Assembly (NCBI RefSeq): GCF_000155595.1
Contig: NZ_DS989905.1
Location: 571,040 to 635,039 of the forward strand
Direction of reading: 5' to 3'
From: Synechococcus sp. PCC 7335
Lineage (GTDB): Bacteria > Cyanobacteriota > Cyanobacteriia > Phormidesmidales > Phormidesmidaceae
DNA: 64,000 nt
The first letter of the stretch is position 1; each line of letters begins with the position of its first letter. Of this stretch, positions 10,308 to 41,651 are shown piece after piece. Made by a program: the position numbers and the translations under genes. A model generated the notes under the pieces. The model did not search any database and was not told where the DNA came from. It worked only from the letters and a program-made list of their open reading frames with translations.

Positions 10308-10991
10308 TCAGTCAATCATTATGTAGACAGTTACTTCTTGTGGTCGAATAAGTTTACCGTCAAATAGATAGCCTGGCCTAACAGTCGAACAAATTGTCTC
10401 TTCTAGTTCTGGATCATGAGTAACTTTTGTGTCTACAACTTGCTGTTGATCGTAGTTGAATTTCCCAGTCATCTCTAGTGGCGTTATGTCTTCTAGTTCT
10501 AGAGTATGTCCAAGTCTCTTGTAAATTTCTGAAAGAGCCTCTGTTGTAAGAGATGTTGAGCTAGACTGAGCCAGCAAAACCCAGTCTCTGAGCTTGATTA
10601 GCTCCATCGCGGTGGAAGAGGGTTTTGACTCAGGGGTAACAGCAATGCTTGAAGGCGACTTTTGCTTGACCACCGCTTCAGTCATGTGAGCTAGCTTGAT
10701 ATTCTCTTGTGAAGGAGAGATAAAATTCCCTGTACTGCTAGGGGTAGAGGAATTCTCGTCATCCAACTCCGTATCGGAATTCTGACCGACCTCAAGCAAA
10801 CGTTCCATGAGTAAACAAGTAGACTTGAGTACCGCGACTACATCTGTGTCAACTGGGTTCTGGGTCGTGGAGGGTAAGTGGTTGAGCTGATGTGCAAGGG
10901 ATTCTGCCCGGAGGGCCAGTTTTGTTATCTTTAGTCTAAAACCCCGATAGGTAGATCTGGGTCTGAATTTTCGGAGCAGCGACTTAAGCAT
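10308..10991 (-). CDS. GrpE-like nucleotide exchange factor with divergent N-terminus
   Basis: The 227-residue protein ends in a block that matches the GrpE beta-wing domain: DPELEETICSTVRPGYLFDG followed by KLIRPQEVTVYI (residues about 192-225). Before it is a helical region (ELIKLRDWVLLAQ, about 130-170) in place of the GrpE dimer helices. The N-terminal 120 residues are basic and then serine-rich and low in complexity, unlike canonical GrpE. GrpE releases ADP from DnaK; three Hsp70 genes occur in the opposite arm of the cluster, so a dedicated exchange factor is a natural reading. It starts 43 bp after the second dynamin gene stops. A leader AAGGAGATCC precedes the ATG at 10991. Confidence 0.65.
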   Translation of the reverse strand: MLKSLLRKFRPRSTYRGFRLKITKLALRAESLAHQLNHLPSTTQNPVDTDVVAVLKSTCLLMERLLEVGQNSDTELDDENSSTPSSTGNFISPSQENIKLAHMTEAVVKQKSPSSIAVTPESKPSSTAMELIKLRDWVLLAQSSSTSLTTEALSEIYKRLGHTLELEDITPLEMTGKFNYDQQQVVDTKVTHDPELEETICSTVRPGYLFDGKLIRPQEVTVYIMID

Positions 10992-11034: not shown

Positions 11035-12603
11035 TTATGACCAAAAATTGAGATGTTTGTGAGCTTCTTGTAGGTGATAGACAATACGTTCATATGAGTG
11101 AGCCAAGACGGTAGAGGCTTCAATGGTTGACCGAGATGCCCCCATTTGAACAGCGGCCCGTAATCGCCACTTCTGCATACGTTCTTTTGCGGCAGAGAGC
11201 AGTTGATCGATGGAAGCTTGTTCCTTCATACCGAGGCGCTGGAAGCAAGCTGGTCCGTATTCACCAGTCACTTCCAGTAGTTGATGAATCTCTGAGTCGC
11301 TAAATTCCAGTTTGCGATCATAGTAGCTCCTCAAAACATCCAGCTCTCGAAAGTCATGAGAATTGGCTTCTAGGGCTTCGACTTTTCCGGCGACCGCTTC
11401 CACTACCTGTAAATCATCGCCAGACTGCTTCTGTTTTTGCTGAAAACAGAGAGCCTGTAGCCGATCAATAGCAGTGCGGAGTTTAATGAGATAGGCGCGA
11501 TGGCCAAAATGGGACGTAATTAATTCGGATAGATCTGAGACACCGCTGGCTTGCATCAATTCTTGGCTTAGTGATTCGAGATCGTAAGTTCCTGAGCGAA
11601 TTAACTGACATGCTTGCCAAATGCCGTAGCGCTCTAGGCGATGGAGTACTTTCTGACGCTCGGAGACAGTTGGCATTTCCAGTTGATCAGGAAATGCCTT
11701 ATTTTCAAACCGAGCTTTAGACCTAAGCAAGCTCTGCAAGCTTTTTTCGGGAAGTGCTGCAAGCTTTTGCAAAGTCTCAAACTCACTGTCTCTTAGTGTT
11801 TTCGCTCCTAGTGCGAGATAGCCGCTTGCAGGCTTGATGGCGTAGAGTAGACTACGGACCTGAGGAATATTGGAAAGGCGAGTGGCAATTTGTTGACTGT
11901 TTTCAGGAGAAAATTCTGGCCAGTATGTATCAATCCGAGTTAAGACCCCAATAGAGTTAATGGGGGTGGCACGTCCCACAGATGGCCCCTGAAACTCTTC
12001 CATGACAGCTTGGTCGCCAGCACTAAAATTATGGCTGAACAAATATAGAACTGCGTCGGCCTTGTCGGCTTCGGCTTGGGTTAAGGCGGTCAGCTCTTGG
12101 CCACGTAGATTCAGAAAGTCACGGGTGTTTTGCGAGTCATCTTTATAAAATGAATCTAGACCAGGGGTGTCGATGAGGTGGAACGTTTTAAGAATCGGGT
12201 TGGGGTAAAAAACTTCGATGTATTTGATGCTCAGCAAATAGTCCTGATGCTCATCTGCACGTTGCGTGAGGGTTTGCAAATCTTCAAAGGACTTATCTTC
12301 AGATTTACCGTTTTTGTAATGCACCTTGAGCGTGTGGTGGGGACCGTACTTGAGCCAGTTGATATTGAACGTGGCTTCAACAGTCCCCGTAGCGACGATC
12401 TCTTCCCCAAGTAAAGCGTTGAGCATCGTGGACTTACCAGCCTTGATTTTGCCAACGATGGCAACCCGCATGGGCTCCGAGAGCCGCTGTTGGCAATTCA
12501 GTAGCTCTTGATGCAATTCTTGCAAAGATGCGCGATCACGGGTCTTCTCTAGGATAAAGTCAAATAAAGCCTGAGCGCGATCACGTAAGGGTAGATCAGC
12601 CAT
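11035..12603 (-). CDS. Dynamin-like GTPase (second of pair)
   Basis: I place the start at ATG 12603, which overlaps the stop of the upstream gene as ATGGCTGA and has GGAG at the right distance; longer upstream frames are possible but would lie inside the previous gene. The resulting 522-residue protein has G1 GKIKAGKS at residues 51-58, G3 DTPG at 145-148 and G4 TRID at 222-225, so a complete GTPase domain. The C-terminal 200 residues are helical with coiled-coil character (EALEANSHDFRELDVL, MKEQASIDQLLSAAKERMQK). No obvious transmembrane helix is present, unlike its partner. Paired bacterial dynamins often work as heterocomplexes on membranes; here the tight overlap suggests equal production of both. 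Confidence 0.85.
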   Translation of the reverse strand: MADLPLRDRAQALFDFILEKTRDRASLQELHQELLNCQQRLSEPMRVAIVGKIKAGKSTMLNALLGEEIVATGTVEATFNINWLKYGPHHTLKVHYKNGKSEDKSFEDLQTLTQRADEHQDYLLSIKYIEVFYPNPILKTFHLIDTPGLDSFYKDDSQNTRDFLNLRGQELTALTQAEADKADAVLYLFSHNFSAGDQAVMEEFQGPSVGRATPINSIGVLTRIDTYWPEFSPENSQQIATRLSNIPQVRSLLYAIKPASGYLALGAKTLRDSEFETLQKLAALPEKSLQSLLRSKARFENKAFPDQLEMPTVSERQKVLHRLERYGIWQACQLIRSGTYDLESLSQELMQASGVSDLSELITSHFGHRAYLIKLRTAIDRLQALCFQQKQKQSGDDLQVVEAVAGKVEALEANSHDFRELDVLRSYYDRKLEFSDSEIHQLLEVTGEYGPACFQRLGMKEQASIDQLLSAAKERMQKWRLRAAVQMGASRSTIEASTVLAHSYERIVYHLQEAHKHLNFWS

Positions 12604-14647
12604 CTGCCCAATCTCCGTAATCCGCATTAGCGGTAACAGGTTGAGGCGTCGCTGGTGCACTTGATGAAGCGGCATCTGCAGATGATGCGGCTGGAGCAGA
12701 AGTGGAGACAGTAGCAGACTCAGGCTCTTCTAGTGCCTGTATGGCTAATTGCTCTGCTGCATTCTGGAAACTTGTGAGCTGCTGTAAGGGGCCCTTTAAC
12801 TCGGCAATCTTATGAGTCATTTGGTTCTGTGAAAGCTTGATGGTTTTCTGAAAAGAACTTAGGCTGCGATCACAGATCTCTTTCTCTTGTTTTATTTGCT
12901 GGTGTAAGTTACTCCGCATCGTTTTACTCAAGTTGGTGATCATATCTTCTAACGCTGCTTTACATGATGAATGATTGTCAACAATATAGGGATGAATGAT
13001 TCTTGAGATTTCTCGTTTAGTTAATATGTGATCTCGTTCTTTAACGTGACTAAGTGCATCCCTGATACCATCAGTCAAGCCTCTTGCACCGCCGAGGAAG
13101 GCCCCCAAGGCCGCACCAAGTTGCGCTCCAGGCACCGCACCCGCGCCGCCAAATACAAGCCCTGCTATTCCTCCCAGTGTTCCTCCCAAAAGTGAGCCAA
13201 TCGCTACTCCACCCATGGCCTTGAATCTACCTCGCGTAGCCGCTTCAATACTCTTTTTCCACAAGCTAGTCTCTGCTGCTTCGACTTGTGATAAACCCTC
13301 TAAACTTTGAACTTGAGCAGCTCCTTCGCCGAGATTTATCCGAGCTAACGAATCAACCGCTAAAGGATTCATATCTAAGCCTGTTGAATTAACAATTTCA
13401 ATGTGCAAAGTGCCAGCTCGTTGACTCAGTTCTTTGGTAAGTATTGACATCATAGAGTCGAAGTCATTTTCTAAAAGTCCTGCTATCTTAGGGGGGGCAT
13501 CTAGGATTTCGCTATCCTCCATATATTCCTGTGAACGGCGTTTTATCTGCTCAACCTCTCTATTAAACTTTCTAAATATTGCTGTTTTGATATCTTGAAT
13601 ACCATCGTTCAACTGGTATTGCCAAGCTGCACTGTCGGTCTGAAGCTGTTTTAATCGCTTAGATAAGTCTCTCAGATTAGACTCTAATTTTGCTTTTTCT
13701 TCCTGATTAAGGTTTTGGCAAGCTTCCCATTCAGCTTGTAGGGGTGACTTGAGATCAGCAACTAACCTTCCAAACTCTGTCAGCGCTCTAAGGATTAAAA
13801 TTTTTCCCCGCTGCTGACCCAAAAGCAGCCATAGCTCTTGTTCCAAGGCTGCGAAGTTACTGTCCTCCAAATCGTCAGGATCCTCGGTGTCTAGATAGGC
13901 TAGGCTTAAGCTGCTTGAAACCGGAACAATTGGCAACGATTCTCCTATATCGGGGAGAGTTTTGACTAGCTTCTCACGATTGCTATCAATAATCTCCTTA
14001 TAGTTACTGACGGCATCAGCTTTGGTGACAACAAAGATAAAATTCTGGCAATGTTTGCTAATCTGCTGAATAAAATTGAGTTCTTTCGTTGAGAGGGGCG
14101 CATAGACATCACTCACAAATAAAATAGAGTCAGCGCTAGGGACATAGGCATAGGTAATATCTGTGTGTTTGGCATTTAGACTACCGACTCCAGGAGTGTC
14201 CACAAGGAGCAGTCCCTCTTTTAACTGCGGATTGGGGGACTCTATTTCTAGCAAACGAGCTTGTTTGTTATTTTTTTGATTACCTTGTTCTGTCACATAA
14301 TCTGAAATATCAGCTCGGCTGATCTCCTTCCTCTTTTCTTTTCCTTGTTCTCCCAAAGCAACTGTGATTTTTTCAGAGTCGCCATAGGTAATCGTAGACA
14401 CGAGATTTGTAGCAATGTCTACATCGACAGGAAATAGACCAGGTTCACGTAAATAGGCATTTATTAGACTGGACTTGCCTTGCTTAGCTTCACCTGCTAC
14501 AACCACAAGCAGTTTACCTTCCAGTAAATGCTGTTTGATTTCATGAAGACGTTTGACAGCATCTTTATGGCCGCTAGCCTTTGCAAAGTCAATTGCAGAC
14601 TTTAGGAGCAAAAGGGTTTGTTGCTTAGTTGCTTGGAAGTTTGCCAT
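12596..14647 (-). CDS. Dynamin-like GTPase with hydrophobic membrane segment (first of pair)
   Basis: The 683-residue protein has G1 GEAKQGKS at residues 52-59, G3 DTPG at 150-153 and G4 TKAD at 208-211. A long helical stalk follows (about 290-450). Residues about 478-530 are glycine/alanine-rich and hydrophobic (GGVAIGSLLGGTLGGIAGLV, then GGAGAVPGAQLGAALGAFLG), resembling the membrane-inserting paddle of bacterial dynamin-like proteins. The tail is rich in Ala, Ser, Thr and Pro and is probably disordered. A leader AGAGGTCC sits before the ATG. Such GTPases remodel or repair membranes; in other bacteria they have been linked to phage tolerance and to membrane stress. Its place here with Hsp70s and proteases suggests a stress or defence role. 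Confidence 0.88.
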   Translation of the reverse strand: MANFQATKQQTLLLLKSAIDFAKASGHKDAVKRLHEIKQHLLEGKLLVVVAGEAKQGKSSLINAYLREPGLFPVDVDIATNLVSTITYGDSEKITVALGEQGKEKRKEISRADISDYVTEQGNQKNNKQARLLEIESPNPQLKEGLLLVDTPGVGSLNAKHTDITYAYVPSADSILFVSDVYAPLSTKELNFIQQISKHCQNFIFVVTKADAVSNYKEIIDSNREKLVKTLPDIGESLPIVPVSSSLSLAYLDTEDPDDLEDSNFAALEQELWLLLGQQRGKILILRALTEFGRLVADLKSPLQAEWEACQNLNQEEKAKLESNLRDLSKRLKQLQTDSAAWQYQLNDGIQDIKTAIFRKFNREVEQIKRRSQEYMEDSEILDAPPKIAGLLENDFDSMMSILTKELSQRAGTLHIEIVNSTGLDMNPLAVDSLARINLGEGAAQVQSLEGLSQVEAAETSLWKKSIEAATRGRFKAMGGVAIGSLLGGTLGGIAGLVFGGAGAVPGAQLGAALGAFLGGARGLTDGIRDALSHVKERDHILTKREISRIIHPYIVDNHSSCKAALEDMITNLSKTMRSNLHQQIKQEKEICDRSLSSFQKTIKLSQNQMTHKIAELKGPLQQLTSFQNAAEQLAIQALEEPESATVSTSAPAASSADAASSSAPATPQPVTANADYGDWADG

Positions 14648-14670: not shown

Positions 14671-15204
14671 TTAAGATGAATGGGGTAGAAAAGTCTGGAA
14701 AAATTTAGGTGAAAGGGCACGGTAGTAGGGTTCGAGAGCAGGTTCCATCAAGAGACGCAAGGACTCGGAGAATCGTGCTTTCCACTCAAGACTGAAGGCT
14801 TCACGCTTCGCCAACGAGTTGAGAAGATGGTCATACATGGCCAGTAGCTCTTGACGCTTGCTGACGTACTCGGCCTTGGGGAGCTGGGCAATCTCTGGAT
14901 GGGGGAAAGTTCCTGCCTGGCTGTTCCAGTTTCCTTCTGGCCAGGGATGCTGGAATCGAAGATTGAGGTATTGCACAGGCAAGCCATTCGACCAGTCCAC
15001 GGTGATGAGAGCAAAGGGGGGAAACAGGGCCATGCCCTGCTTTCCGTGCGATTGGTTGGCACCCACGAAAGGAAGATGGACATAGATATTGCTTTCTCGG
15101 CGCAAAGGCATGGGCCAACCTGTTAGGGCTTCCATCGGTATGAGCTGCTGGGCCAGTGGCATAGCGCGAATCAATTTAATCAGTTTCGCAGTTTCACTTT
15201 CCAT
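14671..15204 (-). CDS. Uncharacterised 177-residue protein
   Basis: I chose ATG 15204 because it lies just after the stop of the peptidase gene (15224) and is preceded by GTAGAAGAAA. Upstream in-frame ATGs at 15246 and 15297 would overlap that gene. The protein is soluble, tryptophan- and proline-rich in the middle (HLPFVGANQSHGKQGMALFP, LITVDWSNGLPVQYLNLRFQ) and helical at the end (KRQELLAMYDHLLNSL). No signal peptide, helix-turn-helix or nucleotide-binding motif is seen. I do not recognise the family. It sits between the peptidase and the dynamin pair with 23 bp to the next start, so it is surely in the same operon. Confidence 0.7.
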   Translation of the reverse strand: MESETAKLIKLIRAMPLAQQLIPMEALTGWPMPLRRESNIYVHLPFVGANQSHGKQGMALFPPFALITVDWSNGLPVQYLNLRFQHPWPEGNWNSQAGTFPHPEIAQLPKAEYVSKRQELLAMYDHLLNSLAKREAFSLEWKARFSESLRLLMEPALEPYYRALSPKFFQTFLPHSS

Positions 15205-15223
15205 TGCATTTTCTTCTACAAAA

Positions 15224-16168
15224 TCATTCGTATGCGGAGGGGACATAGTACTCACCGCTGCTGGGCCAGTAGGGGCGTCCATAGCGATCAAGCGCACTAA
15301 AACGAACTTCGCTCATCCCAGCCAGCTCTGTCTGGTTAGTAGTATCAGGCGTGAGTTCAGTTGTGCTGACCATAAATTTCTGACTATCAGCCCAAGCATT
15401 CTCAAACTCACCCGCAGGCACCCTGAAGCCTTGGCCGTCAGCAGTACCTGGATCATTGAGGATAACCATTGGATTGTTTGGATCTGTGGCGTCAATGCCG
15501 ATCACCTGCACTGCATGGTTCGCATCCTGGCCAGGGATATGTCCATAGCCAGCAATGTAATCACCCAGCACATCGTCTTCTAGTGCGTTCTCGCCAGGGG
15601 TCCAGATTTCATCGGCATCAACGCCAACGATGACCTTTTGCCCCTGTTCAAGTTTCTCAGCAATATCCTGCAGAGAACCGCCAAATTCCTGGGTCACGGG
15701 GACACCGTAGGCTTCTAGCAAATTGCCAGTTGCATGCAGCGGAGTACCGCCTCCTGGAGTATACCAACCGTTAGCGGTGGCGACTTCGGTTAATTCTTGC
15801 TCGGTCACATCTCGCCCGAGTACCTCATCTAACACAAATTCTTGGGATGCGATCGCACAGGTATCATCACGGGTTTGCTGATGCCAGTTCTCCATATCCT
15901 CATCAGGTGTGCCGAATACTCCATCGATGGGGTTTGGATCGCAAGAACCAATTTCAAACGGAGTGGCCACAATCCCCGTATCCACAACACCATCACCATC
16001 AGTGTCAATCAAGTTGACGCTTAATATGTCGTCAAGCACGCCATCACCATTCATGTCTGATTGCACCAGGGTGGTATCTAGAATGCCATCGCCATCGGTA
16101 TCAATATCTTGGACGTAGCTTTCTTCCAAGCCATCTCCATCAAGATCTAGCCAGTCCATGCTGAACAT
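15224..16168 (-). CDS. C39-like cysteine peptidase with N-terminal DxDGDG calcium repeats
   Basis: The 314-residue protein begins with five DxDGDG-type loops within residues 8-65 (DLDGDG, DTDGDG, DMNGDG, DTDGDG), as in dockerin or EF-hand-like calcium-binding repeats. The second half reads as a papain-like C39_2 peptidase: cysteine in DDTCAIAS (C104), histidine in NHAVQVIGID (H218) and the third residue in ILNDPG (N238/D239). No signal peptide or membrane helix precedes the repeats. Calcium could therefore gate a cytoplasmic or specially exported protease. It is the first gene of the minus arm, facing the sigma-factor gene across a 254-bp gap. The substrate is unknown; a partner protein within the cluster is one possibility. 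Confidence 0.75.
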   Translation of the reverse strand: MFSMDWLDLDGDGLEESYVQDIDTDGDGILDTTLVQSDMNGDGVLDDILSVNLIDTDGDGVVDTGIVATPFEIGSCDPNPIDGVFGTPDEDMENWHQQTRDDTCAIASQEFVLDEVLGRDVTEQELTEVATANGWYTPGGGTPLHATGNLLEAYGVPVTQEFGGSLQDIAEKLEQGQKVIVGVDADEIWTPGENALEDDVLGDYIAGYGHIPGQDANHAVQVIGIDATDPNNPMVILNDPGTADGQGFRVPAGEFENAWADSQKFMVSTTELTPDTTNQTELAGMSEVRFSALDRYGRPYWPSSGEYYVPSAYE

Positions 16169-16422: not shown

Positions 16423-17652
16423 ATGTTTCACTCTCGGAAAGCGCTATTAGATGTATTTTCCGCTTTTATTCAATTCAAGGACGGTGATTTTGACGGTTGG
16501 CTTATTGCTCCAGCGTTGAAGCGGAGTATGGCAGTTCAGCTTGCTCAATGCGACAAGACAGATACCTCTAACCACTTTTGGGCCTTGTTTTGGTACGGAC
16601 TGTGGCAACAAGGCTCGCGTTCTTGGTCAGAAGGCCATTTAACCGCTTACCTGCAGGAAACTTGCTATAGAGTCGCTCGGCAGCTCAAACGTCAAGTTCC
16701 CGGAGAACAGTTCTGTTTATCTGACTGCTTTCAGATGGCGATTGCCAAAACCCCTCAGATACTGGCAGGATTTGATCCTAGCCGGGGGTATCACCTGAGT
16801 ACCTATGCGGCGAGAGCCTACAGCACAATTATCAAGGAACAGCTCCGCCGGAGCCAAGAGATTGATTTTTGTAGCAACTGGGCTTTATTACGGAAAATCA
16901 GCCGCAAGCAGCTCACTGAGGCAATTGCACAGGCTGGGTTGGTAGCTCCCGAAGCCAATCTATATCTGCTGGCCTGGCGCTGTTTTAACGCTTTATATAT
17001 TCCACCACGCCCCACGGCGAATCGCGCCTTAAAGGAACCTGATCCTGAAACCTGGACCGCTATCGTTAAACTCTACAACACGGAACGGAACAATCAACCC
17101 TATGGTCTGAGGACAGTCGCTACAGTCTTAGAGTTGCAAGATTTGCTCGACTGCTGCGCGAGCTGGGCGCGAGCCTATTTGAATCCGGCCCAGATTTCGA
17201 TTCATATGGCGCTGGGGGGACCTGAATCACAGGAGCTAGGTGAGGTTTTACCACAGTTACAAGCAGCCTCAGTGCTAGATGACCTGCTCAAGCAGGAGTC
17301 AGAAGGACAGCGAACGGCTCAGCAGCATGCGGTTTATGCTGTGTTGGCAAACGCGATCACAACTCTAGCTCCCACCCGACAACATCTCCTCCAGCTTTAC
17401 TACGGTGAAGGGCTTACGCAACAACGGATTGCAGCTCAAGGTCAGCTCAAGCAGTTCGAAATTTCTCGCTATCTCAGCCGAGCCAGGAAGAGGTTGATTC
17501 AAGCATTAGTCCAGTGGAGTCAAGATCACCTGCATATTTCTATCACGCCCGACATAGTAAACACTATCAGTGATGATCTTGAAATGTGGCTCAGCGCCTT
17601 TTATCAGTCGTCTGAGTCACCAATTCCAACCGTCAATAACCATGAAAGCTGA
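16423..17652 (+). CDS. Sigma-70-like RNA polymerase sigma factor, divergent
   Basis: The 409-residue protein contains a sigma region 2-like stretch, FDPSRGYHLSTYAARAYSTI followed by IKEQLRRSQEID (residues about 117-150), and a C-terminal region 4-like helix-turn-helix, LYYGEGLTQQRIAAQGQLKQ followed by FEISRYLSRARKRLI (about 325-360). Between them lies a long, cyanobacteria-specific insert. The length and spacing differ from group 1-2 sigma factors. Cyanobacterial proteins of this type are commonly followed by a DUF1822 gene, as here, where the stop overlaps the next ATG. It probably directs transcription of this cluster, which is inference. An ATG at 16416 out of frame is ignored. Confidence 0.8.
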   Translation: MFHSRKALLDVFSAFIQFKDGDFDGWLIAPALKRSMAVQLAQCDKTDTSNHFWALFWYGLWQQGSRSWSEGHLTAYLQETCYRVARQLKRQVPGEQFCLSDCFQMAIAKTPQILAGFDPSRGYHLSTYAARAYSTIIKEQLRRSQEIDFCSNWALLRKISRKQLTEAIAQAGLVAPEANLYLLAWRCFNALYIPPRPTANRALKEPDPETWTAIVKLYNTERNNQPYGLRTVATVLELQDLLDCCASWARAYLNPAQISIHMALGGPESQELGEVLPQLQAASVLDDLLKQESEGQRTAQQHAVYAVLANAITTLAPTRQHLLQLYYGEGLTQQRIAAQGQLKQFEISRYLSRARKRLIQALVQWSQDHLHISITPDIVNTISDDLEMWLSAFYQSSESPIPTVNNHES

Positions 17653-18808
17653 CCTAGCAATGCCATCCCTTGCAAATCCTCAACACCTCTGGCTGGAGGT
17701 TGAGAGCGCTATCCGAGAGCAAGCATGGTCTCAAAGCCGAGCCTGTGCAACGCCTTGGGCGAGGTGGAATGCCTATTTGAATCTTGTGTGCCTTGATGTT
17801 TTCTTACCTTGGCTGGATAAAGAGCATGACTTGAAGGGAAAAGTCTGGCCTCATCATGGGTCAGTCCTCAGCTTCAGCGAACTGGTGCAGGGTATCTGCA
17901 TTAGCATTGACGACCTGCGTCTGGTGTTGGTTCCGTCCGATACACTTGACTGGAACAGGATGTATATTGCTCAAGAATGGGTAGATATCCCCAACTGGAT
18001 TGCCAACTACTATTTAGCAGCGAATCTTGACTGCGATGCAGGCTGGCTAGAGGTGATTGGGTTTGCTGCCCACCAAACGGTCAAAGAATACGGCATCTAT
18101 GAGCCTGAAGATCGGCAATATGAGGTAGACATTTCAGCTCTTACCCAAGATCTCAATGCGCTGTGGGTGACCCATCAGTTCTGTGATCGCCTGCAGAAAA
18201 CCTCGGTGGCAACGATGCCCATGTCCCTAACTCAGACTCAAAACCTAATTACGCGATTGGGAAACCCAGCAGTGATTTGGCCTAGACTAAGTGTGCCCTT
18301 CGAGCAATGGCGACAGTTAGTTGAGCATGGTGGATGGCGGCAACAGTTAAGTAATCGGCGGCAGGGCGTTCCCTCTTTGGGATCCATCACTCAATGGCTA
18401 CGCACTCAACTTCCAGAAGCCATTCAAAATATCGGCTGGCAGCTAATTACATTGCCGTTGTTGCCTGAGGGCGCGCGCGGAAAAGATCCTCAACTTCCTG
18501 CTCAGATACTCTCAAGGCAGCTCATCATTACAGGGTTGACCTATGAACTGCGGATTTTCCCTTTGCCTTCAAAAATACATCACTGGCGAGTGGAGCTACG
18601 AAGCACTGGCCCAGGTCGATCTATTCCTAAGGGGATAAAGTTAATTTTACTGACGGAAGATCTGCAACCTTTTGAGAATAATGTGGCTACGGCATCTGTT
18701 CCCACAGAAGTATTAGCGCTTGAGGTGATTGTGGAGCCGGGGGAGGGTTTGGTTTGGCAAACAAGTCCCCTACCAGAGGACTACGATCAGGAAGTTTTGT
18801 ATTTTTAG
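17642..18808 (+). CDS. DUF1822 family protein
   Basis: Start chosen at ATG 17642, which overlaps the sigma-factor stop (ATGAAAGCTGA); an upstream frame from 17570 would be inside that gene. The 388-residue protein shows the family pattern: LVLVPSDTLDW, QEWVDIPNWIANYYLA, a GYxxH-like segment (GFAAHQTVKEYG), the LNALWVTHQFCDRLQ helix, and RLGNPAVIWPRLSVPFEQW followed by HGGWRQQL. The family is almost confined to cyanobacteria and has no proven activity; it is repeatedly found beside sigma-like and caspase/CHASE2 genes. Overlap with the sigma gene suggests it modulates that factor, for example as an anti-sigma or co-activator, but this is unproven. Confidence 0.82.
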   Translation: MKADLAMPSLANPQHLWLEVESAIREQAWSQSRACATPWARWNAYLNLVCLDVFLPWLDKEHDLKGKVWPHHGSVLSFSELVQGICISIDDLRLVLVPSDTLDWNRMYIAQEWVDIPNWIANYYLAANLDCDAGWLEVIGFAAHQTVKEYGIYEPEDRQYEVDISALTQDLNALWVTHQFCDRLQKTSVATMPMSLTQTQNLITRLGNPAVIWPRLSVPFEQWRQLVEHGGWRQQLSNRRQGVPSLGSITQWLRTQLPEAIQNIGWQLITLPLLPEGARGKDPQLPAQILSRQLIITGLTYELRIFPLPSKIHHWRVELRSTGPGRSIPKGIKLILLTEDLQPFENNVATASVPTEVLALEVIVEPGEGLVWQTSPLPEDYDQEVLYF

Positions 18809-18863: not shown

Positions 18864-20666
18864 ATGCATTTAGGAATTGATTTTGGTACCTGCAACACGA
18901 GTGCAGCACTGTTTCTGGATGGGACGCTCAAGCCTGTCAAAGAACCCCTAAAGCAGAGCTATTCTTTTCCCTCTAGTGTATTTGTCACCAAGCAAGGGCA
19001 GCTTGTTGTGGGGCAAGCTGCAGAAAATCAACGGAAGATGAATCCATCTCACTATCGCCGAGAGTTTAAGCGGGAGTTGGGAGCCTCCAACCCCTATAAC
19101 TTGGGAGAACAAGAAATGCTACCGGAAGCGCTAGTCTCTGAGTTGCTTCGCAGCCTCAAGAAAGAAGCAGAGCTAATGGTGAATCAGCAGCTCACTTCAA
19201 CCGTAGTGACGATTCCGGCCAGCTATCAGAGCCACAAACAAACTTTAATGCTCCAGGCCGTAGAGGCAGCGGGCTTTACAGACATTAGGTTGCTCGTGGA
19301 ACCAGTTGCGGCAGCGATTTATTACACCCATCTCGTCGATGGCAGTCAAGCTCTTAAGGAAGGGGAAATTCTACTCGTCTACGATTTAGGCGGAGGCACC
19401 TTTGATGCGGCGCTGGTTCAAAAGCAGGGGCGGAGGTATGAGTTGCTAGCCCAACCCATTGGCGATGATCAGCTTGGTGGAGTGGACTTCGACCGCCAAA
19501 TTTACCAAGACTTACAAGCCAACTGCGGCGATACGCTACAGGCACTCCTAGATCCACAGCGCCTGGACACTGAGGCACTCAGAGCCAAGCTGATTGTAGG
19601 AGACTGGTGCCGCGAGTTTAAGCACCAGCTTAGCGCAGTGAGCGATTATGAAGACTTGCTACCGGTAGGCATGTCTGAGAGCTACTACCTTACTCAGGAT
19701 AGCTTTGCAACAATGATTGCCCCCTTCTTTCAAAAGACCTGTGAACTATGTAGGCAACTGGTCAAGAATGCGGGTTTCGATTGGGACGAAGTGGATCGAA
19801 TCCTAATGGTAGGGGGAAGTTGTCGAATGCCTGCTGTTAGGTCAGCGTTAGAGGATACGTTTGAACGTCCCGTAGTAAACGTTGATGACCCCGAGCTAGC
19901 CGTTGCCTTAGGAGCTGCCCTTTTTGAAGAATCAGAGCATAAAGCACCGAAAGAAGAACATTTGGCATTTGATATTATCGAACAGCCCCCCGATACAGGT
20001 CAAGTGTATTTTGTGCCCGCTGTTGTACCTGGTGGTTTTGAAAAGGAAATTGAGAGTCTGAATAGAGAAGGCAATACATCAAAACAGGATATCAACCTAA
20101 AACAAAACAACTCTAGCCAATTTCAATTCATTAAACAAAGTAAACAACAAATTGGCCTTGACTTTGACCAATATATATCTAATACAGTACAAAAACTAGC
20201 CTTAGCAAGGCTTCAGTACCAGGAAGAGCTTTTTTTAGATGAGAATCGATGCTTCAATTTGGTCGCGTATGGAAACATACCTATCCAAACTGCCAATACA
20301 AATTTCGTATTCTTCGTGTCAAACATTAGTGGTAACAAAGAAGGCCAAAAATTTATGCACTTTTACGAAGACTGCATTCAATATTTTGAAGAAGAGGCTA
20401 GAAAAAATCTTGAACACTTTTTGTGGAAAAATCCTCCATTATGTTGTCCGATTGCCGTATTCACAGGTGTAGATTCTAATCTGATTAAAAGCTTTAATCA
20501 ATTAAAGGTAGAGGTTAGAAATAAAGGGAGATTTTCTGTTTATTCCGTGCTGCCAGCAATAGTTGATTTGCGATCAATGAAACTAATCACTTTGTCTGGA
20601 AAACTTGATTTTCTAAATATGTTTGGCCCTGCCAAGAAACAACTCCAAAGGATTTTTGCGCCCTGA
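18864..20666 (+). CDS. Hsp70 (DnaK-like) ATPase with unique C-terminus, paralogue A
   Basis: Start chosen at ATG 18864 with GGGAGAG upstream, giving MHLGIDFGTCNTSAAL at the N-terminus; the longer frame from 18729 lies inside the DUF1822 gene. Residues 1 to about 370 are an Hsp70 nucleotide-binding domain with DFGTCNTS (phosphate 1), LVYDLGGGTFDAAL (phosphate 2) and MVGGSCRMPAV (adenosine). The usual DnaK substrate-binding beta domain and lid are absent. In their place is a roughly 230-residue C-terminus that is AT-rich and that I do not recognise (QYISNTVQKLALARLQYQEE, CQRF-free core, final MFGPAKKQLQRIF). The first of three paralogues in tandem. Confidence 0.85.
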   Translation: MHLGIDFGTCNTSAALFLDGTLKPVKEPLKQSYSFPSSVFVTKQGQLVVGQAAENQRKMNPSHYRREFKRELGASNPYNLGEQEMLPEALVSELLRSLKKEAELMVNQQLTSTVVTIPASYQSHKQTLMLQAVEAAGFTDIRLLVEPVAAAIYYTHLVDGSQALKEGEILLVYDLGGGTFDAALVQKQGRRYELLAQPIGDDQLGGVDFDRQIYQDLQANCGDTLQALLDPQRLDTEALRAKLIVGDWCREFKHQLSAVSDYEDLLPVGMSESYYLTQDSFATMIAPFFQKTCELCRQLVKNAGFDWDEVDRILMVGGSCRMPAVRSALEDTFERPVVNVDDPELAVALGAALFEESEHKAPKEEHLAFDIIEQPPDTGQVYFVPAVVPGGFEKEIESLNREGNTSKQDINLKQNNSSQFQFIKQSKQQIGLDFDQYISNTVQKLALARLQYQEELFLDENRCFNLVAYGNIPIQTANTNFVFFVSNISGNKEGQKFMHFYEDCIQYFEEEARKNLEHFLWKNPPLCCPIAVFTGVDSNLIKSFNQLKVEVRNKGRFSVYSVLPAIVDLRSMKLITLSGKLDFLNMFGPAKKQLQRIFAP

Positions 20667-20733
20667 AAATGAAGATATATAGATTCTTCTTATGATGTTA
20701 ATGTCCAATTTTTTGTTCGCTTAGGAGTGTCTT

Positions 20734-21462
20734 ATGGATATTGAAAACTACGATATTGAAGACTGCATTGATAACTTGAGTCCAGAAGATGAGCATGAAT
20801 TTGATGATGTTCAGGAGCTTCAGACTTCGGATAATTCAATCGGTAATGATGTTGACATCAACGACAACGACTTGTCATCACTAGGCTCCTCTACTGATGC
20901 CCTAGTGCAAGAAACTCAGAATATTCTGGCTGAAACTCAGCAAGAGCTGAATGTTATCAGGAATGAACAGGGCCAGCCGTCACCCACAGGCGACTCTACG
21001 ACCGACTTTCTAACGCAGCTCCATGAGCAAAATGCCAAGCTCAATGCGGATATCGCAGAAATTGAAGCAGCCTACACCTCTGGAAACGATGCTTGGATCG
21101 CTGATGTGGAAGCCGAGCTGGATCAAAAAGAGCGACAGACCGCTCAACTAGAGATTAAGAATAACGCCTACATTAATGAACAGGAAATTACTCGTGAAAT
21201 TCGTAATGAGCAAGACCAAATGCGCTGGAGTGATGCGGCACAGGAAAATCGCACTTATCAATACCAGGAGGAAATAGCCGCTGAGCACTACGCCGCCAAT
21301 GCCGAAAGTTATGCCGAAGCGGGAGATGTTGCCGCCGCTGCTGATGCTGCTGAACAGGGCATACATCACATCGAGCAAGCCAAAGGTTATCAGGAACGGG
21401 CTAGGCAGTACGAAAGTTGGAAGGAGGAGGCTTCAGCAGCTAGTGATGATGTCGGCATTTAA
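20734..21462 (+). CDS. Acidic coiled-coil protein of unknown function
   Basis: The 242-residue protein has a strongly acidic, disordered-looking N-terminus (about residues 1-55, rich in Asp, Glu and Asn) followed by a long helical coiled-coil (LVQETQNILAETQQELNVIR, DVEAELDQKERQTAQLEIK) and an alanine/glutamate-rich tail (EAGDVAAAADAAEQGIHHIE). No membrane segment or enzyme motif is seen. It lies between two Hsp70 genes, 67 bp after the first and 89 bp before the second. The context suggests a structural partner, scaffold or client of the Hsp70s. GTCTTATGG gives a start at 20734 with GGAG 11 bases upstream. Confidence 0.7.
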   Translation: MDIENYDIEDCIDNLSPEDEHEFDDVQELQTSDNSIGNDVDINDNDLSSLGSSTDALVQETQNILAETQQELNVIRNEQGQPSPTGDSTTDFLTQLHEQNAKLNADIAEIEAAYTSGNDAWIADVEAELDQKERQTAQLEIKNNAYINEQEITREIRNEQDQMRWSDAAQENRTYQYQEEIAAEHYAANAESYAEAGDVAAAADAAEQGIHHIEQAKGYQERARQYESWKEEASAASDDVGI

Positions 21463-21551
21463 GGCAGTTGCAGATTGTGGGAGCGGCTGTAAGGTGAAAG
21501 GATAGAGATAAACAACTGTTTAGTAGATTTAGATTAGATAGGAATACGATA

Positions 21552-22892
21552 ATGCATCTTGGGATTGATTTTGGTACCTGCTATTCCAGTGCTGCCTTGA
21601 TGTTAGATGGCACATTCCAAGCAGTAAAAGAACCATTGAAACATGGCTACTCTTTCCCTTCCAGCGCCTTTTTGACTAAGCAGGGCAATATTGTAGTCGG
21701 CCAAGCTGCAGAGAACCAGTATAAGCTTGCTCCAAACCGCTATTGTCGTGAATTTAAGCGGGATTTTGGATGCACTGTGCCCTATACGCTGGGGGGGCGA
21801 GGATTTCTACCTGAGCAATTGATTTTGGAACTGCTCTGTACCATTAAGGCGGAGGCTGAGCAGATGGTCAACGCTCCCTTATCAACAGCCGTCATCACTG
21901 TTCCAGCCACTTATCAATCCTACAAACGGGAATTGATGGAGCAAGTCGCAACTCAAGCAGGCTTTAAATCTGTCGCTTTACTAGAAGAGCCTGTTGCCGC
22001 TGCTACCTACTACGCTAGAAAACAAGGAGGGAATCAGAGACTTACTAAGGGCAATATCCTTTTGATTTATGACCTGGGTGGGGGTACTTTTGATGCATCG
22101 CTTATTCAAAAGAATAGTAAGGGGTATGATTTACTGGCCCAGCCCGTTGGAGACGAACAACTGGGTGGAGTGGACTTCGACCGCCAGATTTATCAAGATT
22201 TGAAAGCTAATTGTAGCAAGACATTACAGGCCTTACTGAATCCGCGGTGTTCCGATACTGAAGCACTCAGAGCCCAGCTGATTGTGGGTGATTGGTGCAG
22301 AAATTTTAAGCATCAGCTCAGTGTAGTGAGTGAGTATGAGGATTTACTTCCCATAGGTATGTCTGAGACTTATCAGTTGAGTCAAAACGATTTTTCTGAA
22401 ATGATCGCCCCCTTTTTACAAAGAACCTGTCAGCTGAGTAGCCAACTGGTTAAAAATGCTGGATTAGATTGGGACAAAGTAGACCAGATTTTAATGGTGG
22501 GGGGGAGTTGTCGGATTCCTGCTGTCAAAAAAGTTCTGGAAGAGTCTTTTGAACGCCCACTTGTACTTGTTGACGACCCAGAACTGGCAGTCGCCTATGG
22601 ATCTGCGATTTATGAAATTTCTCGTCCAACAAGAAAACCTGAAAGAACACTAGAAAACAATGAAGTTATTACTATTCAACCAGCTGATATTCAATTATCT
22701 AATGAACCCAATCAGAAAAACGTGATTGATGGTGCAAAAAAACAGCAAATGTCTAAAACCAGCGAAGACACGTTAGCTGGTTTAGTAGTTGTAATTATTG
22801 TAGTAGGTATATGTGTTTTTGTCTTTCAATGGCCTATATGGTTAGCAATTATTTTTGTTGTGGTAAGGCTGTTATATGCTTCCAACAAGTAG
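21552..22892 (+). CDS. Hsp70 (DnaK-like) ATPase with C-terminal membrane helices, paralogue B
   Basis: The 446-residue protein is an Hsp70 nucleotide-binding domain (residues 1 to about 365; DFGTCYSS, LIYDLGGGTFDASL, MVGGSCRIPAV), then a short polar linker and two closely spaced hydrophobic helices (about 408-443; GLVVVIIVVGICVFVF and WPIWLAIIFVVVRLLY). The DnaK substrate-binding domain is missing. The ATPase would thus be held on the cytoplasmic face of a membrane. Its first 57 residues are identical to those of paralogue C and the first roughly 100 bases of the two genes are the same, a sign of recent duplication or gene conversion. GGAATACG precedes both start codons. Confidence 0.88.
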   Translation: MHLGIDFGTCYSSAALMLDGTFQAVKEPLKHGYSFPSSAFLTKQGNIVVGQAAENQYKLAPNRYCREFKRDFGCTVPYTLGGRGFLPEQLILELLCTIKAEAEQMVNAPLSTAVITVPATYQSYKRELMEQVATQAGFKSVALLEEPVAAATYYARKQGGNQRLTKGNILLIYDLGGGTFDASLIQKNSKGYDLLAQPVGDEQLGGVDFDRQIYQDLKANCSKTLQALLNPRCSDTEALRAQLIVGDWCRNFKHQLSVVSEYEDLLPIGMSETYQLSQNDFSEMIAPFLQRTCQLSSQLVKNAGLDWDKVDQILMVGGSCRIPAVKKVLEESFERPLVLVDDPELAVAYGSAIYEISRPTRKPERTLENNEVITIQPADIQLSNEPNQKNVIDGAKKQQMSKTSEDTLAGLVVVIIVVGICVFVFQWPIWLAIIFVVVRLLYASNK

Positions 22893-22943
22893 CTAATTCT
22901 ATGCTTGTTTGTACCGTTTAGTCATTTAGAGAGGAATACGAAA

Positions 22944-24851
22944 ATGCATCTTGGGATTGATTTTGGTACCTGCTATTCCAGTGCTGCCTTGATGTTAGAT
23001 GGCACATTCCAAGCAGTAAAAGAACCATTGAAACATGGCTACTCCTTCCCCTCCAGCGCCTTTTTGACCAAGCAGGGCAATATTGTAGTCGGCCAAGCTG
23101 CTGAGAACCAGTATCGACTTGCTCCAGGCCGCTATCGCCGTGAGTTTAAGCGCGATTTAGGCCGTACTGTTCCCTATGTGCTCGGAGAACAAGATTTTTT
23201 ACCCGAGCAATTGATTCTGGAGCTGGTACGCACCATCAAAACTGAGGCCGAGCAGATGGCTAGCGATTCCTTGACGACAGCTATCATCACCATCCCAGCC
23301 ACCTACCAAACCTATAAGCGGCAATTGATGGAGCAAGTGGCTGCTCAAGCAGGCTTTGAAACGGTCACCTTACTAGAAGAGCCAGTCGCCGCCGCTACCT
23401 ACTATGCCAATAAACAGGGAGGGCTTACTGAGGGCGATATTCTTCTAGTCTACGATTTGGGGGGTGGCACTTTTGACGCTGCCCTGATTCAGAAGCAAGG
23501 CAACAGTTTTCAGGTTTTAGCTCAACCTGTGGGTGATGAACAGTGTGGTGGGATTGACTTTGATCGCCAAATCTACGCTGATCTAAACTCCCGCTGTAGT
23601 GACACGCTACAAGATCTTCTAAAGCCAACTAACCAGGATGTCGCAGCAGTTCGAACCAAGCTGATTGTAGGGGATTGGTGTCAGGGCTTTAAGCATCAGC
23701 TCAGCGCAGTACCTGAATATGAAGATCTGTTGCCCGTGGGGATGTCTGAAACCTATGCTCTAACTCGGCAACAGTTTGAAAGCATGATCGAGCCTTTTGT
23801 TACCAGGACTCTTGATCTCTGTACTCAACTGGTCCAAAGTGCGAACTTGAGCTGGGAGGAGATCAGTCGAGTCTTAATGGTGGGAGGGAGCTGTCGGATT
23901 CCCTATGTTAAAGAATCGATAGAAAAAGCCTTTGGTTGTGCTGTTGAAAGGGTAACTGATCCTGAACTTGCGGTATCTTACGGTGCTGCTGCCTATCATG
24001 ACACTTCTCAAGAAGATGTAGTTACGGGTTATCTGAATGAGGGAATAGAAGAAGCGAAAGCAAATCATTACTCTCCTGCAATTTTGAAATTCAATCATGC
24101 ATTGGAACTAAATCCAGATTATTATCCAGCCAAATATAATCGTGGATTAGCTCTATTGAAAATGGGCAAGCTAGATCAAGCTCTTGATGATTTCAATCAG
24201 GTTATAAATTTATCTCCAAGCTATGCAGAAGCCTATGCGAATCGAGGCAATGTTCTCTTCAAGTTAGCAATGCTGGAAGAAGCATTAGAAAGTTATAATC
24301 AGGCTCTAGAGATCAATTCAAAACTTTCATACGTATTAAAAAACAAAAGGAAAGTTCAAGACAGGTTAAAAGAAAAACAAAACAAAACAAAAGCACAGTA
24401 CTATGCTGTCTCTAGCGCAGAGGAGTCATCTGAGAAGAAACTGAATAGGCAAAATCTGAAGCGTCTTATGTGGCAATTTGAGAATGAAAGAGTTTACTTG
24501 TCTCCTGACATACCTGAAGAAAAATTGGATAATGCTATAAATATATACAAAAGTGAGCTAAAGAGAATATATAAGATTGGAAAAACAAGTGTGAAAGTCC
24601 TTTTGTTGTACGATGATACTTTCTGGGGTGGTGCTCGTGAGGGGTTGTTACTTCTAGAAGACTGTGCATGCTTCAGTAACTATAATGATGATCCTCCAAT
24701 ATGTCTTCGGTATAGTGAAATTCATAGAGTAGAATGTTCAGATGAAAAGATTTTCATAAACGGGGCAAGAGTAGATCTAACCATGGCAGATGATAAGAAA
24801 CTTCTTGCTCAAATGATTGCGAAGGTTTTAAGAAATACAGCATGCTGCTGA
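22944..24851 (+). CDS. Hsp70 (DnaK-like) ATPase with TPR repeats, paralogue C
   Basis: Start chosen at ATG 22944 (MHLGIDFGTCYSSAAL), after GAGAGGAATACG; the in-frame codons from 22905 are untranslated leader. Residues 1 to about 350 are the Hsp70 nucleotide-binding domain (DFGTCYSS, LVYDLGGGTFDAAL, MVGGSCRIPYV). Residues about 358-470 are three TPR units (NHALELNPDYYPAKYNRGLA, LDQALDDFNQVINLSPSYAE, EALESYNQALEINSK), for binding protein partners. The last 150 residues form an AT-rich domain I do not recognise (SPDIPEEKLDNAINIYKSEL, LLLYDDTFWGGAREGLLLLE). The substrate-binding domain of DnaK is again absent, so TPR may replace it in choosing clients. Confidence 0.87.
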   Translation: MHLGIDFGTCYSSAALMLDGTFQAVKEPLKHGYSFPSSAFLTKQGNIVVGQAAENQYRLAPGRYRREFKRDLGRTVPYVLGEQDFLPEQLILELVRTIKTEAEQMASDSLTTAIITIPATYQTYKRQLMEQVAAQAGFETVTLLEEPVAAATYYANKQGGLTEGDILLVYDLGGGTFDAALIQKQGNSFQVLAQPVGDEQCGGIDFDRQIYADLNSRCSDTLQDLLKPTNQDVAAVRTKLIVGDWCQGFKHQLSAVPEYEDLLPVGMSETYALTRQQFESMIEPFVTRTLDLCTQLVQSANLSWEEISRVLMVGGSCRIPYVKESIEKAFGCAVERVTDPELAVSYGAAAYHDTSQEDVVTGYLNEGIEEAKANHYSPAILKFNHALELNPDYYPAKYNRGLALLKMGKLDQALDDFNQVINLSPSYAEAYANRGNVLFKLAMLEEALESYNQALEINSKLSYVLKNKRKVQDRLKEKQNKTKAQYYAVSSAEESSEKKLNRQNLKRLMWQFENERVYLSPDIPEEKLDNAINIYKSELKRIYKIGKTSVKVLLLYDDTFWGGAREGLLLLEDCACFSNYNDDPPICLRYSEIHRVECSDEKIFINGARVDLTMADDKKLLAQMIAKVLRNTACC

Positions 24852-37568: not shown

Positions 37569-40500
37569 ATGGCAAATGCAGCTAGCGAAAGATTGAAAGA
37601 TACATTAACGACCGGGCTCACAAAGGCCAACTCTTCAGTGCCTGGACAGTTAGCACCTGGGCAACTAGCCAGAGTGCGATCGCGTCAATACCTGATTGAA
37701 GAAGTCATTGTGCCGACAGATGAGAAGGGAGATACGCTGGTACGTCTTTCTTGTGTTGAAGATGACGCGCAAGGCGAGCCGCTAGAGGTATTTTGGGAAC
37801 GAGAGATTGATGCCAAGCTGATTGGAGCCGCGACTTGGGATGCGGTCGTGAGCCAAGGCTTTGACAATCCGCGCTATTTTTCAGCTTACTTTCACACGCT
37901 ACGCTGGAACTGCGTGACTTCGACTGATCCTAGATTATTCCAAGCGCCGTACCGAGCTGGCATTGAGGTAAATGCCTATCAGCTAGAGCCGCTGCGCAAG
38001 GCGCTGCGGATGCCAAGAGTCAATCTGTTTATTGCCGATGATGTGGGTTTGGGCAAGACCATTGAAGCAGGTTTAATCCTGCGAGAGATGCTGCTGCGTC
38101 AAAAGATTAAGCGAGTGGTTATTTCCGCACCGCCTTCGGTTGTACAGCAGTGGAAGGAGGAAATGGAGAGCCGCTTTGGTCTGACGTTTACGATTTACGA
38201 TCGGGCGTATGTTGCGAGAATGCGGCGATCGCGTGGCTACGCCATTAACCCTTGGACAACGCACAACCGATTCATCATTTCTCATGCACTATTGCGGAAT
38301 GAGACTTATGCAGCACCTTTGAGAGATTGGTTAGGGGAGTTTTCGGCTGGCTCGATGTTTATCCTAGATGAGGCCCACAACGCAGCGCCAGCGAGCAGCT
38401 CTAAGTATGCAGTAGACTCACAGCTCACTAAAACGGTGCGAAATCTAGCGCCTCGGTTTGAGCATCGATTATTTTTATCAGCCACGCCGCATAACGGACA
38501 CTCAAACAGCTTTGCGGCCCTGCTAGAGATTTTAGATCCACAGCGATTTTGTCGGGGAGTGCCCGTGCGCAGCAAAGCGCTGCTAGATGCAGTCATGGTG
38601 CGGCGGCTAAAGCAAGATTTAAGAGAGATTAAAAATGGAGACTTTCCAGAACGTCAGGTGATTGCACTGCGAGTAGACGGGTTGCCAGAAGAGGCACCGG
38701 AGCTAGTGCTATCGCAGCTGTTGCAGCAGTACAGAGACTGCCGAGAAGAGCGGCTAAGAGAAGCAACAAAATCTTCACGAGCAGCGGCAATGCTGGTAAT
38801 TACTTCTTTGCAGAAACGGCTGCTATCTTCGATTGAAGCATTTTCTCGAACTTTAAGCGTGCATTGCAAGTCCGTGGAAAAGCTAGCAAAAGAGACCGCT
38901 GGTGTGTCTGATCGGCTTTTGAATGGCATGAGCTTATCTCTGCTGGAAGAAGCGCCCGGCAATGACGATGAACGAGCGGATTTGGATGAAGCGGAGGTGG
39001 CACTAGAAGAAGACAATCAGATGGTGATCGCAACTCAAGCGTCTATGGCAACTTCTGGGCCAAATTCTGGACAAACCTCTGGCGGCGGGGTAACTGCTAG
39101 AGAACTAGAGCTGTTGGAGCAGATGAGCGATATTGCTGCAAAGGCTCGCTATCTGCCCGACGGACGCATTGAGCAGCTAGCGGTATGGCTAAACGAGAAT
39201 CTGTGCCCGCAGCTGGGTGAAAAAGGAGCGCAGTGGAATAACCACCGAGTTCTTATTTTTACGGAGTATACAGATACTAAGCGGTATCTAGAGCAGCAGC
39301 TAGGGGCAATTATTGCTGAGTCCGACCGGGCGCAGAAGCGGATTGAGACATTTCATGGGGGCATCGGTGATGAAAGGCGCGAGCAAGTGAAGGCGGCGTT
39401 TAATGCTGACCCGGCGGCGCATCCGCTGCGAATTTTGATTGCGACGGATGCGGCGAGAGAAGGGGTGAATTTACAGAATTACTGCGCGAATTTGTTCCAC
39501 TTTGATGTGCCTTGGAACCCGAGCCGGATGGAGCAACGGAACGGGCGGATTGACCGGAAGTTGCAGAAGGCTGATTTAGTGCGCTGCTATTACTTCGTGT
39601 ATTCGCAGCGAGCAGAGGATCGGGTGCTAGACGTGCTGGTGCAAAAGACGAAGCGGATTCAAGAAGAGCTAGGTAGTCTATCACCTGTGGTTGAGAAGAA
39701 CGTTTCTAAACTGCTAAAGCAAGGCATTCGCACAAGTGAGGAAGCTGCACTAACTAAAGCAATTGACGAGTCTGATACAGCAGATTCTGAATCGGTAGAA
39801 AAGGGCAAAGTCATCAGTGAGGAGCTAGAAGCCATCAGAGACAAGCGACAGGCGCTATTAGATCAAGAAAAGCAGCTTCAGAATATTTTGGATGCATCCT
39901 ATAAGTGGCTAGGCTTTGAGGACAGACATTTCCGCGATGCGATTTCGGCGTCGTTGGAGCTGCTAGGGGCGAGGTCTTTGACGCCGCTGTCTGAAAAGGA
40001 GGCGAGAGAAAATCCTGATCAGGCGCAGTGGGAGATTCTGGCTTTGGACGAAAAGCTAGGGACAGATCCGACTTGGGCAGCGACCTTGGATACGTTGCGA
40101 TCGCCTAGAAAGCGCGGTCAAAAACTATGGGAATGGCGCAACGAGTCACCGATTTTGCCAGTCATTTTTCGCGACTCGGGCTCTTTAGATTCACAGTCGG
40201 TGCATCTGCATTTAGAGCAGCGACTGGTACAGCGGCTGCTGGGTCGGTTTTTATCTCAAGGGTTCGTTCATGATGACCTGACGCGGGCCTGCGTGTGCCT
40301 AACGGATACGGCGATTCCGAGGGTGATTATGCTAGGGCGGCTGTCGCTGTATGGGCAGGGGGCGGCGCGGCTGCATGATGAGATTGTGCCGGTGGTGGCC
40401 AGGTGGAAAGATCCTGACGACAGAGAGGGATTACAGGTACTGGGCGATCGCACCACCAGAGAAGTCCTGCAAACCTTAGAAGATTCTTTGGCTAATCCGC

Positions 40501-40922: not shown

Positions 40923-40986
40923 AGGTTCTCTACCATCTGATTAGTAAACTGGCATAATTTAAGCAAGAAGGCAGGAATATCGTTTT

Positions 40987-41241
40987 ATGGCAAGTTCGGC
41001 AATTGAAGTGAAAGTTGGGGACAGTGGACGGCTCGTTATTCCAGCTGAATTGCGGCATCAGATGGATCTCCATCCAGGAGATCGTCTAGTTGCGCAGATT
41101 GACGATGAGGGGCGACTAACTTTTGAAAAGGCAGAAACGATTAAGCAGCGTCTCAAACAGCAGTTTGCTCATTTGAAAGGGCAAGGTGTGATTGATGATT
41201 TGATTGATGAGCGGCGAGCAGCGGCGCGGATGGAGACGTGA
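40987..41241 (+). CDS. AbrB/MazE-type antitoxin (VapB-like)
   Basis: The 84-residue protein begins with a swapped-hairpin AbrB fold: EVKVGDSGRLVIPAELRHQM, LHPGDRLVAQID, EGRLTFEK. The C-terminal helix (KQRLKQQFAHLKGQGVIDDL) would bind the toxin. Its TGA overlaps the toxin ATG by one base (TGATG). As a DNA-binding autorepressor it would control the pair, and might also affect drmMI immediately downstream. Confidence 0.82.
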   Translation: MASSAIEVKVGDSGRLVIPAELRHQMDLHPGDRLVAQIDDEGRLTFEKAETIKQRLKQQFAHLKGQGVIDDLIDERRAAARMET

Positions 41242-41651
41242 TGTCAGCCAATAAAACGGATAAACAGTCGCAAACAGTGGTACTAGATGCTTCCGCTCTG
41301 TTGGCATTTTTATTAGATGAGGCAGGGCACAAGCAGGTAGATGCAGTAATCGCTGAATCTGTCATGTCGAGCGTGAACTGGTGTGAGGTCGTGCAGCAGA
41401 TGGTAAAGCGAGAAACCGATATGTTGGGCTGTCGGGAGAGTTTAGAAGTTTTGGGTATGTCAATTATTCCTTTTGATGCGATCGCGGCTGAGCAAACGGC
41501 TGAACTTTGGCCAGGGTCTCGTGCCTATGGATTGTCGCTAGGCGATCGCGCTTGCATTGCGCTGGGGATGGCAATGAAGGTTCCTGTTTTGACGGGCGAT
41601 CGCGTTTGGGCCGATGCCTATCCCAACTCTCTTGTTCAACTCATTCGTTAA
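41241..41651 (+). CDS. PIN-domain toxin (VapC-like)
   Basis: ATG 41241 is preferred to the overlapping GTG at 41238. The 136-residue protein has VVLDASALLAFL (Asp), NWCEVVQQ (Glu), LSLGDRACIALG (Asp) and VLTGDRVWAD (Asp), the four PIN acidic residues. Its stop is only 2 bp before the drmMI start, so the pair is built into the DISARM operon between drmD and drmMI. The toxin would be released if the operon is lost or shut down, tending to keep DISARM in the host. Confidence 0.85.
   Translation: MSANKTDKQSQTVVLDASALLAFLLDEAGHKQVDAVIAESVMSSVNWCEVVQQMVKRETDMLGCRESLEVLGMSIIPFDAIAAEQTAELWPGSRAYGLSLGDRACIALGMAMKVPVLTGDRVWADAYPNSLVQLIR

Follow-up and report, generated by a model that had tools for sequence, protein, structure and literature searches.

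The 64,000-nucleotide stretch of Synechococcus sp. PCC 7335 DNA analysed here (all of which is referred to as the window) contains three tandem genes, Hsp70-A, Hsp70-B and Hsp70-C, whose products share the Hsp70 ATPase and differ in what follows it. An earlier note on the sequence had placed three tandem Hsp70 ATPases at positions 18864-24851; the open reading frames prove to be exact, and each product has a Pfam HSP70 match. The three products have a nucleotide-binding domain (NBD) and lack the substrate-binding domain (SBD):

18864-20666, + strand: Hsp70-A, 600 amino acids; NBD at residues 1-355, then a linker and an orphan C-terminal domain (~432-600)
21552-22892, + strand: Hsp70-B, 446 amino acids; SBD-less NBD followed by a pair of membrane helices at the C-terminus; first ~180 nt converted by C
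22944-24851, + strand: Hsp70-C, 635 amino acids; SBD-less NBD, TPRs (~395-460) and a BnzA-like domain (~502-606)

Hsp70 ATPases without a substrate-binding domain

The Pfam HSP70 profile is matched by A, B and C with E-values of 3e-49, 4e-49 and 8e-52 respectively, in each case at positions ~2-371 of 599 only, and a Pfam scan finds nothing SBD-like downstream of the matched NBD. All three proteins retain the ATP motifs DFGTC, FKR, EPVAAA, DLGGGTFD and VGGSCR, and their NBDs are 67% (A/B), 62% (A/C) and 72% (B/C) identical. The description of these as full NBDs in the earlier note thus holds for the ATP motifs, although two insertions present in DnaK, namely the insert that follows the KR..G motif, and the GPKHLE hairpin, are missing. 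Alignment with DnaK also reveals no interdomain linker of the LLLDV type (ILLLDVTPLSLG) in any of the three. The C-terminal SBD of the Hsp70/DnaK chaperones is therefore not detectable in proteins that keep the NBD and its ATP motifs, as the earlier note had said, and its absence is real at the level of sequence, because the identical BLAST comparison, applied to the closest Hsp70s of relatives that do bear an SBD, readily picks it up (E of 1e-29 or better). A search of the host genome returns three full-length DnaKs and three truncated Hsp70 matches, the latter being A, B and C. One of the host's own full-length DnaKs (L003) terminates in ...DDWF.

In an NBD tree the cyanobacterial and actinobacterial SBD-less groups both fall outside the SBD-bearing group, and because the branches are long the tree accommodates either one or two losses of the SBD. 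The triplication that gave rise to A, B and C predates the split from Acaryochloris and postdates that from the Anabaena/Dolichospermum form. An Hsp70 on a plasmid of Nostoc UHCC 0302, encoded with GrpE, DnaJ and TPR genes, was considered as a protein of the same kind and rejected, since its SBD is still present. It has kin in a separate cyanobacterial Hsp70 subfamily (L072-L082, genomes of relatives) of ~520-620 amino acids, in which the beta half of the SBD is present and the lid is probably missing.

C-terminal tails

The swapping of C-terminal modules described in the earlier note is evident in all three proteins. The A tail (~432-600) belongs to no Pfam family and is 57% identical to its counterpart in Acaryochloris; among 373 cyanobacterial genomes it was found in the host's only, and it was found neither in plasmids nor in profile searches of the PDB. 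In B about 90 residues follow the NBD, and these include two transmembrane-like stretches, starting at ~403 and ~418, that form a membrane hairpin and leave hardly any room for an SBD. The C tail consists of TPRs recognized by Pfam followed by a domain absent from Pfam, which matches residues 9-110 of BnzA in PADLOC (E=2e-11), as does, independently, that of the Acaryochloris orthologue (E 1e-8). Weak kin of this domain form the ends of three glycine-rich membrane proteins from cyanobacteria other than the host, so the domain is a mobile one rather than a degraded SBD. The likeness to Bunzi extends only to BnzA residues ~9-110, within the Hsp70-C tail, full-length BnzA being absent, and no TerB family, the Bunzi partner, was seen among the scanned neighbour proteins.

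Structure prediction and a search for relatives of the tails had been proposed as checks in the earlier note. The AlphaFold2 models are too poor to settle the folds, with predicted local distance difference test (pLDDT) scores of 53 for A and 39 for C. That of A is an alpha/beta fold unlike the SBD beta-sandwich, and Foldseek finds nothing significant with it (best E 0.05, probability 0.16); its few endonuclease-like matches are scattered and were set aside. Profile searches of the PDB with the C tail likewise gave no matches; a PH-like fold that its sequence pattern might indicate is unproven. As to relatives, the A tail was found elsewhere only in Acaryochloris.

Gene conversion between Hsp70-B and Hsp70-C

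The first 57 residues of B and C are identical and their DNA nearly so, as the earlier note reported: nucleotide identity is 100% over codons 1-20, 97% over codons 21-40, 92% over codons 41-60 and ~75% thereafter. A repeat finder delimits a repeat of 300 nt (89%) that begins 18 nt upstream of the ATGs. This exceeds chance by far. Functional constraint was considered and rejected as its cause, since identity between the Acaryochloris B and C reaches just 73% in the first 30 residues, and since within nucleotides 1-90 all 16 informative sites group the window's B with C genes and none with the Acaryochloris B. Past nucleotide 500 the sites favour the opposite grouping (44:5, then 76:21), a switch supported by a permutation test (p = 2e-4), and over its first 30 codons the window's B is 90% identical to the Acaryochloris C and 78% to the Acaryochloris B. 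Because the orthologues lack the identity and the sites at 1-90 divide 16:0, it is, going beyond the earlier note, the product of conversion of B by C within the host genome.

The gap between B and C (22892-22944) is 51 nt in the window and about 550 nt in Acaryochloris (L014 14158-14710). Conversion of the 5′ end of B and loss of the spacer may be linked.

A conserved multi-gene unit

The Hsp70 genes are part of a conserved multi-gene unit, a second point beyond the earlier note. The other members within the window are:

10308-10991, - strand: GrpE-like protein; C-terminal GrpE beta-domain only (E 1e-7); counterpart in Rhodococcus
11035-12675, - strand: dynamin 2, the IniC-like partner GTPase (Dynamin_N, E 1.5e-20)
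12596-14647, - strand: dynamin 1, IniA-like (PDB 6j72, E 1e-37; PADLOC LeoA, E 1e-24); C-terminal end ...DWADG
14671-15297, - strand: orphan protein seen only with this module; 88% in Acaryochloris L014, 51% in Dolichospermum
15224-16168, - strand: C39-like cysteine peptidase with DxDGDG (calcium-loop-like) repeats
16423-17652, + strand: sigma-70-like factor
17570-18808, + strand: DUF1822 protein (E 3e-84)
20734-21462, + strand: acidic 242-residue protein between A and B; no family; 69% in Acaryochloris L014
25004-29986, + strand: caspase-like, nSTAND1 NTPase and WD40 protein, directly after Hsp70-C

The minus-strand set runs from the GrpE-like protein through dynamin 2, dynamin 1 and the orphan protein to the C39-like peptidase, and is divergent from the plus strand, on which the order is sigma factor, DUF1822, A, the 242-residue protein, B, C and the caspase-nSTAND1-WD40 gene. 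The nearest PDB match of dynamin 1, 6j72, is IniA, an isoniazid-inducible protein. The Gln, Cys, His and Asp of the C39-like peptidase are kept in all three cyanobacterial forms. Its DxDGDG repeats, fused to the peptidase in cyanobacteria, are a separate adjacent gene in Rhodococcus (L042 11510-12379; L043 10151-10786).

Within the host's order the module is present in this genome alone among 64-65 genomes. In a metagenome-assembled genome of Acaryochloris (L014) both gene content and gene order match those of the window up to the end of the contig, the complete genes being 69-87% identical (71% for the orthologue of Hsp70-A). Dolichospermum UHCC 0259 and plasmid pANA01 of Anabaena sp. 90 have one SBD-less Hsp70 each, in a set that lies on one strand and comprises the Hsp70, two genes of DO-GTPase-like type, C39, the dynamin pair and the orphan protein; in pANA01 it is preceded by DUF1822 and a CHAT/nSTAND gene. 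Several of the Anabaena/Dolichospermum module proteins (L035 8202-19552; L015) share a short C-terminal tag (...NDWF, ...DNWF, ...FNWF, ...PEWF), and their dynamin 1 ends in ...SWADD, compared with ...DWADG in the window.

The linkage extends to actinobacteria. Hsp70s on Rhodococcus and Gordonia plasmids consist of an NBD, a transmembrane segment and an outer domain, without an SBD, and a Rhodococcus plasmid encodes two of these SBD-less proteins in tandem with unlike tails, so that tail-swapping recurs there. R. qingshengii has its genes in the order IniA-like, GrpE-beta protein, IniC-like, Hsp70, Hsp70, and a C39 gene, a gene for a DGDG-repeat protein and a sigma factor gene lie nearby; in R. 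opacus and Gordonia the order is IniA-IniC-Hsp70. Actinobacterial plasmid records with a close SBD-less Hsp70 number 39, representing about five lineages because many are near copies, and an IniC-like GTPase is present in 32 of them, always within ~3.3 kb. A divergent lipoprotein-like gene of ~420 residues is conserved beside the actinobacterial dynamin gene (R. opacus L042 18286-19554; R. qingshengii L043 15105-16364).

About 7 kb downstream of the module lies a set of recognized defence genes:

37569-56568: class 1 DISARM set (DrmD, DrmMI, DrmA, DrmB, DrmC) with Iet genes
45652-49145: IetS/IetA pair, inserted between drmMI and drmA
52885-53763: transposase, between drmA and drmB

Together with a tyrosine-recombinase-like gene (assigned by eye) from 33 kb of the window, these make the region from 33 kb a defence island.

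Comparison with known systems

The adjacent dynamin pair is of types matching mycobacterial IniA/IniC and E. coli LeoA/LeoBC (Eleos in PADLOC). To our knowledge these pairs have been described without SBD-less Hsp70, GrpE-like or C39 partners, and PADLOC support for Eleos consists of single-protein matches only. A 'chaperone clade' of cyanobacterial dynamin-like proteins has been reported (PMC5827413, 2018) in which a DnaK-domain gene lies beside the dynamin, as it does here, and a functional link was proposed; the section consulted makes no mention of SBD loss, of GrpE or C39, of dynamins in IniA/IniC-like pairs, of tandem Hsp70s whose tails are swapped, or of counterparts in actinobacteria.

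Hsp70-GrpE accompanied by a further Hsp70 that has no peptide-binding domain has been described in GAP1-N2 double-GTPase conflict systems with TPR or transmembrane effectors (Kaur et al. 2020, PMC7159879), which those authors found to be almost absent from cyanobacteria. The window likewise has SBD-less Hsp70s and a GrpE-like gene; however, genes of the DO-GTPase type are at the Anabaena 90 locus only, the GTPases of the window being Dynamin_N proteins, and neither GAP1 nor FNIII-DnaJ was seen in the window. Neighbourhoods of a sigma factor, DUF1822 and a caspase are also known (EACC2-caspase systems; Kaur et al. 2021, PMC8195603). These three gene types flank the window's Hsp70s, which sit between DUF1822 and the caspase protein, and the likeness comes from these gene types alone. 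Linkage of DnaK to dynamins is thus already known, as is the occurrence of SBD-less Hsp70s in GTPase conflict systems; of the combination seen in the window we found no description in the open-access literature.

Proposed role

The composition of the unit and the defence island next to it point to a device for membrane stress or immunity, and not to chaperones of the ordinary sort. On balance we slightly favour the view that A, B and C are nucleotide switches, and not peptide-binding chaperones, within a conserved membrane-damage or anti-phage module. Support comes from the synteny in Acaryochloris, the one-Hsp70 cyanobacterial forms and the actinobacterial Hsp70-dynamin linkage, as well as from the kept ATP motifs, the missing linker, the PADLOC LeoA and BnzA matches, the proximity of DISARM and Iet and the patchy occurrence. 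The earlier note's suggestion that the ATPase may serve as a switch for various client or location modules would fit this arrangement. As the Hsp70 heads bind and hydrolyse ATP, they would alter how the attached modules are held (the membrane for B, the TPRs with the BnzA-like domain for C, the orphan domain for A), and the GrpE-like protein would act as the exchange factor that resets the heads. The tails would choose membrane or partner, and the heads would gate the assembly of the dynamins at a damaged or phage-attacked membrane and also that of the protease/caspase arm. Because the C39 peptidase carries DxDGDG repeats, one may speculate that calcium entering through the breached membrane triggers the protease. 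A more specific proposal is tentative, and we consider it somewhat more apt to fail than to hold: that this is an undescribed defence system, against phage or membrane damage, common to cyanobacteria and actinobacterial plasmids. In it, SBD-less Hsp70 switches reset by a GrpE-like factor would govern both a pair of dynamins and a C39 protease responsive to calcium, and their interchangeable tails would pick the place or partner.

Several observations weigh against a switch role in such a module. First, closeness to defence islands is common to many non-defence genes. Second, triplicated Hsp70s are known from two cyanobacteria only. Third, the remaining seven of the 39 actinobacterial plasmid records have the Hsp70 but no dynamins, and the three chromosomal actinobacterial relatives have no dynamin within about 10 kb. 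Fourth, the PADLOC matches to LeoA and BnzA are at the level of domains, not systems. Finally, dynamin, sigma factor, caspase and C39 genes are also compatible with repair under envelope stress or with housekeeping remodelling of membranes.

This last point leads to the strongest alternative, which we nonetheless regard as rather unlikely: a system for envelope stress and membrane repair, and not immunity, in which the dynamin pair would seal or trim the membrane while the Hsp70s and the GrpE-like protein would regulate dynamin oligomers. This would parallel IniA, which responds to drugs that act on the cell wall, and DynA, which responds to pores in the membrane. The isoniazid-inducible IniA is the nearest PDB match of dynamin 1, B and the Rhodococcus Hsp70s are membrane-anchored, and membrane protection by DynA is proposed in PMC5827413; set against these are the attached sigma, DUF1822 and caspase-nSTAND1 genes, of a type for which an immune or cell-death role has been proposed (PMC8195603), and the fact that the module adjoins DISARM and Iet, is patchy and occurs on plasmids. 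A chance juxtaposition of two independent units, a plus-strand sigma-DUF1822-Hsp70-caspase immune operon and a minus-strand dynamin/GrpE/C39 unit, would account for the divergent transcription and for the presence of DUF1822 genes at other places in the host genome, but it is improbable given that the Hsp70, C39, the orphan protein and both dynamins share one strand in Anabaena 90 and Dolichospermum, and that the Rhodococcus Hsp70 lies directly 3′ of the IniC-like gene. That these are divergent ordinary chaperones with a substrate-binding fold hidden in the tails is very improbable, for while the models are too poor to exclude any fold formally, B has nearly no space for one, C has TPRs and the BnzA-like domain, the A model is alpha/beta, no SBD is detected at sequence level where the controls are positive, and the linker is absent.

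Almost all that is known of Hsp70 concerns its work as a chaperone, with an ATPase that drives an SBD. If the nucleotide-switch reading is true, the Hsp70 ATPase would here have been freed, multiplied and fused to domains of membrane, TPR and defence type in a conserved, mobile module beside dynamins, making Hsp70 a generic switch, and the module would offer a testable handle on the regulators of bacterial dynamin pairs such as IniA/IniC.

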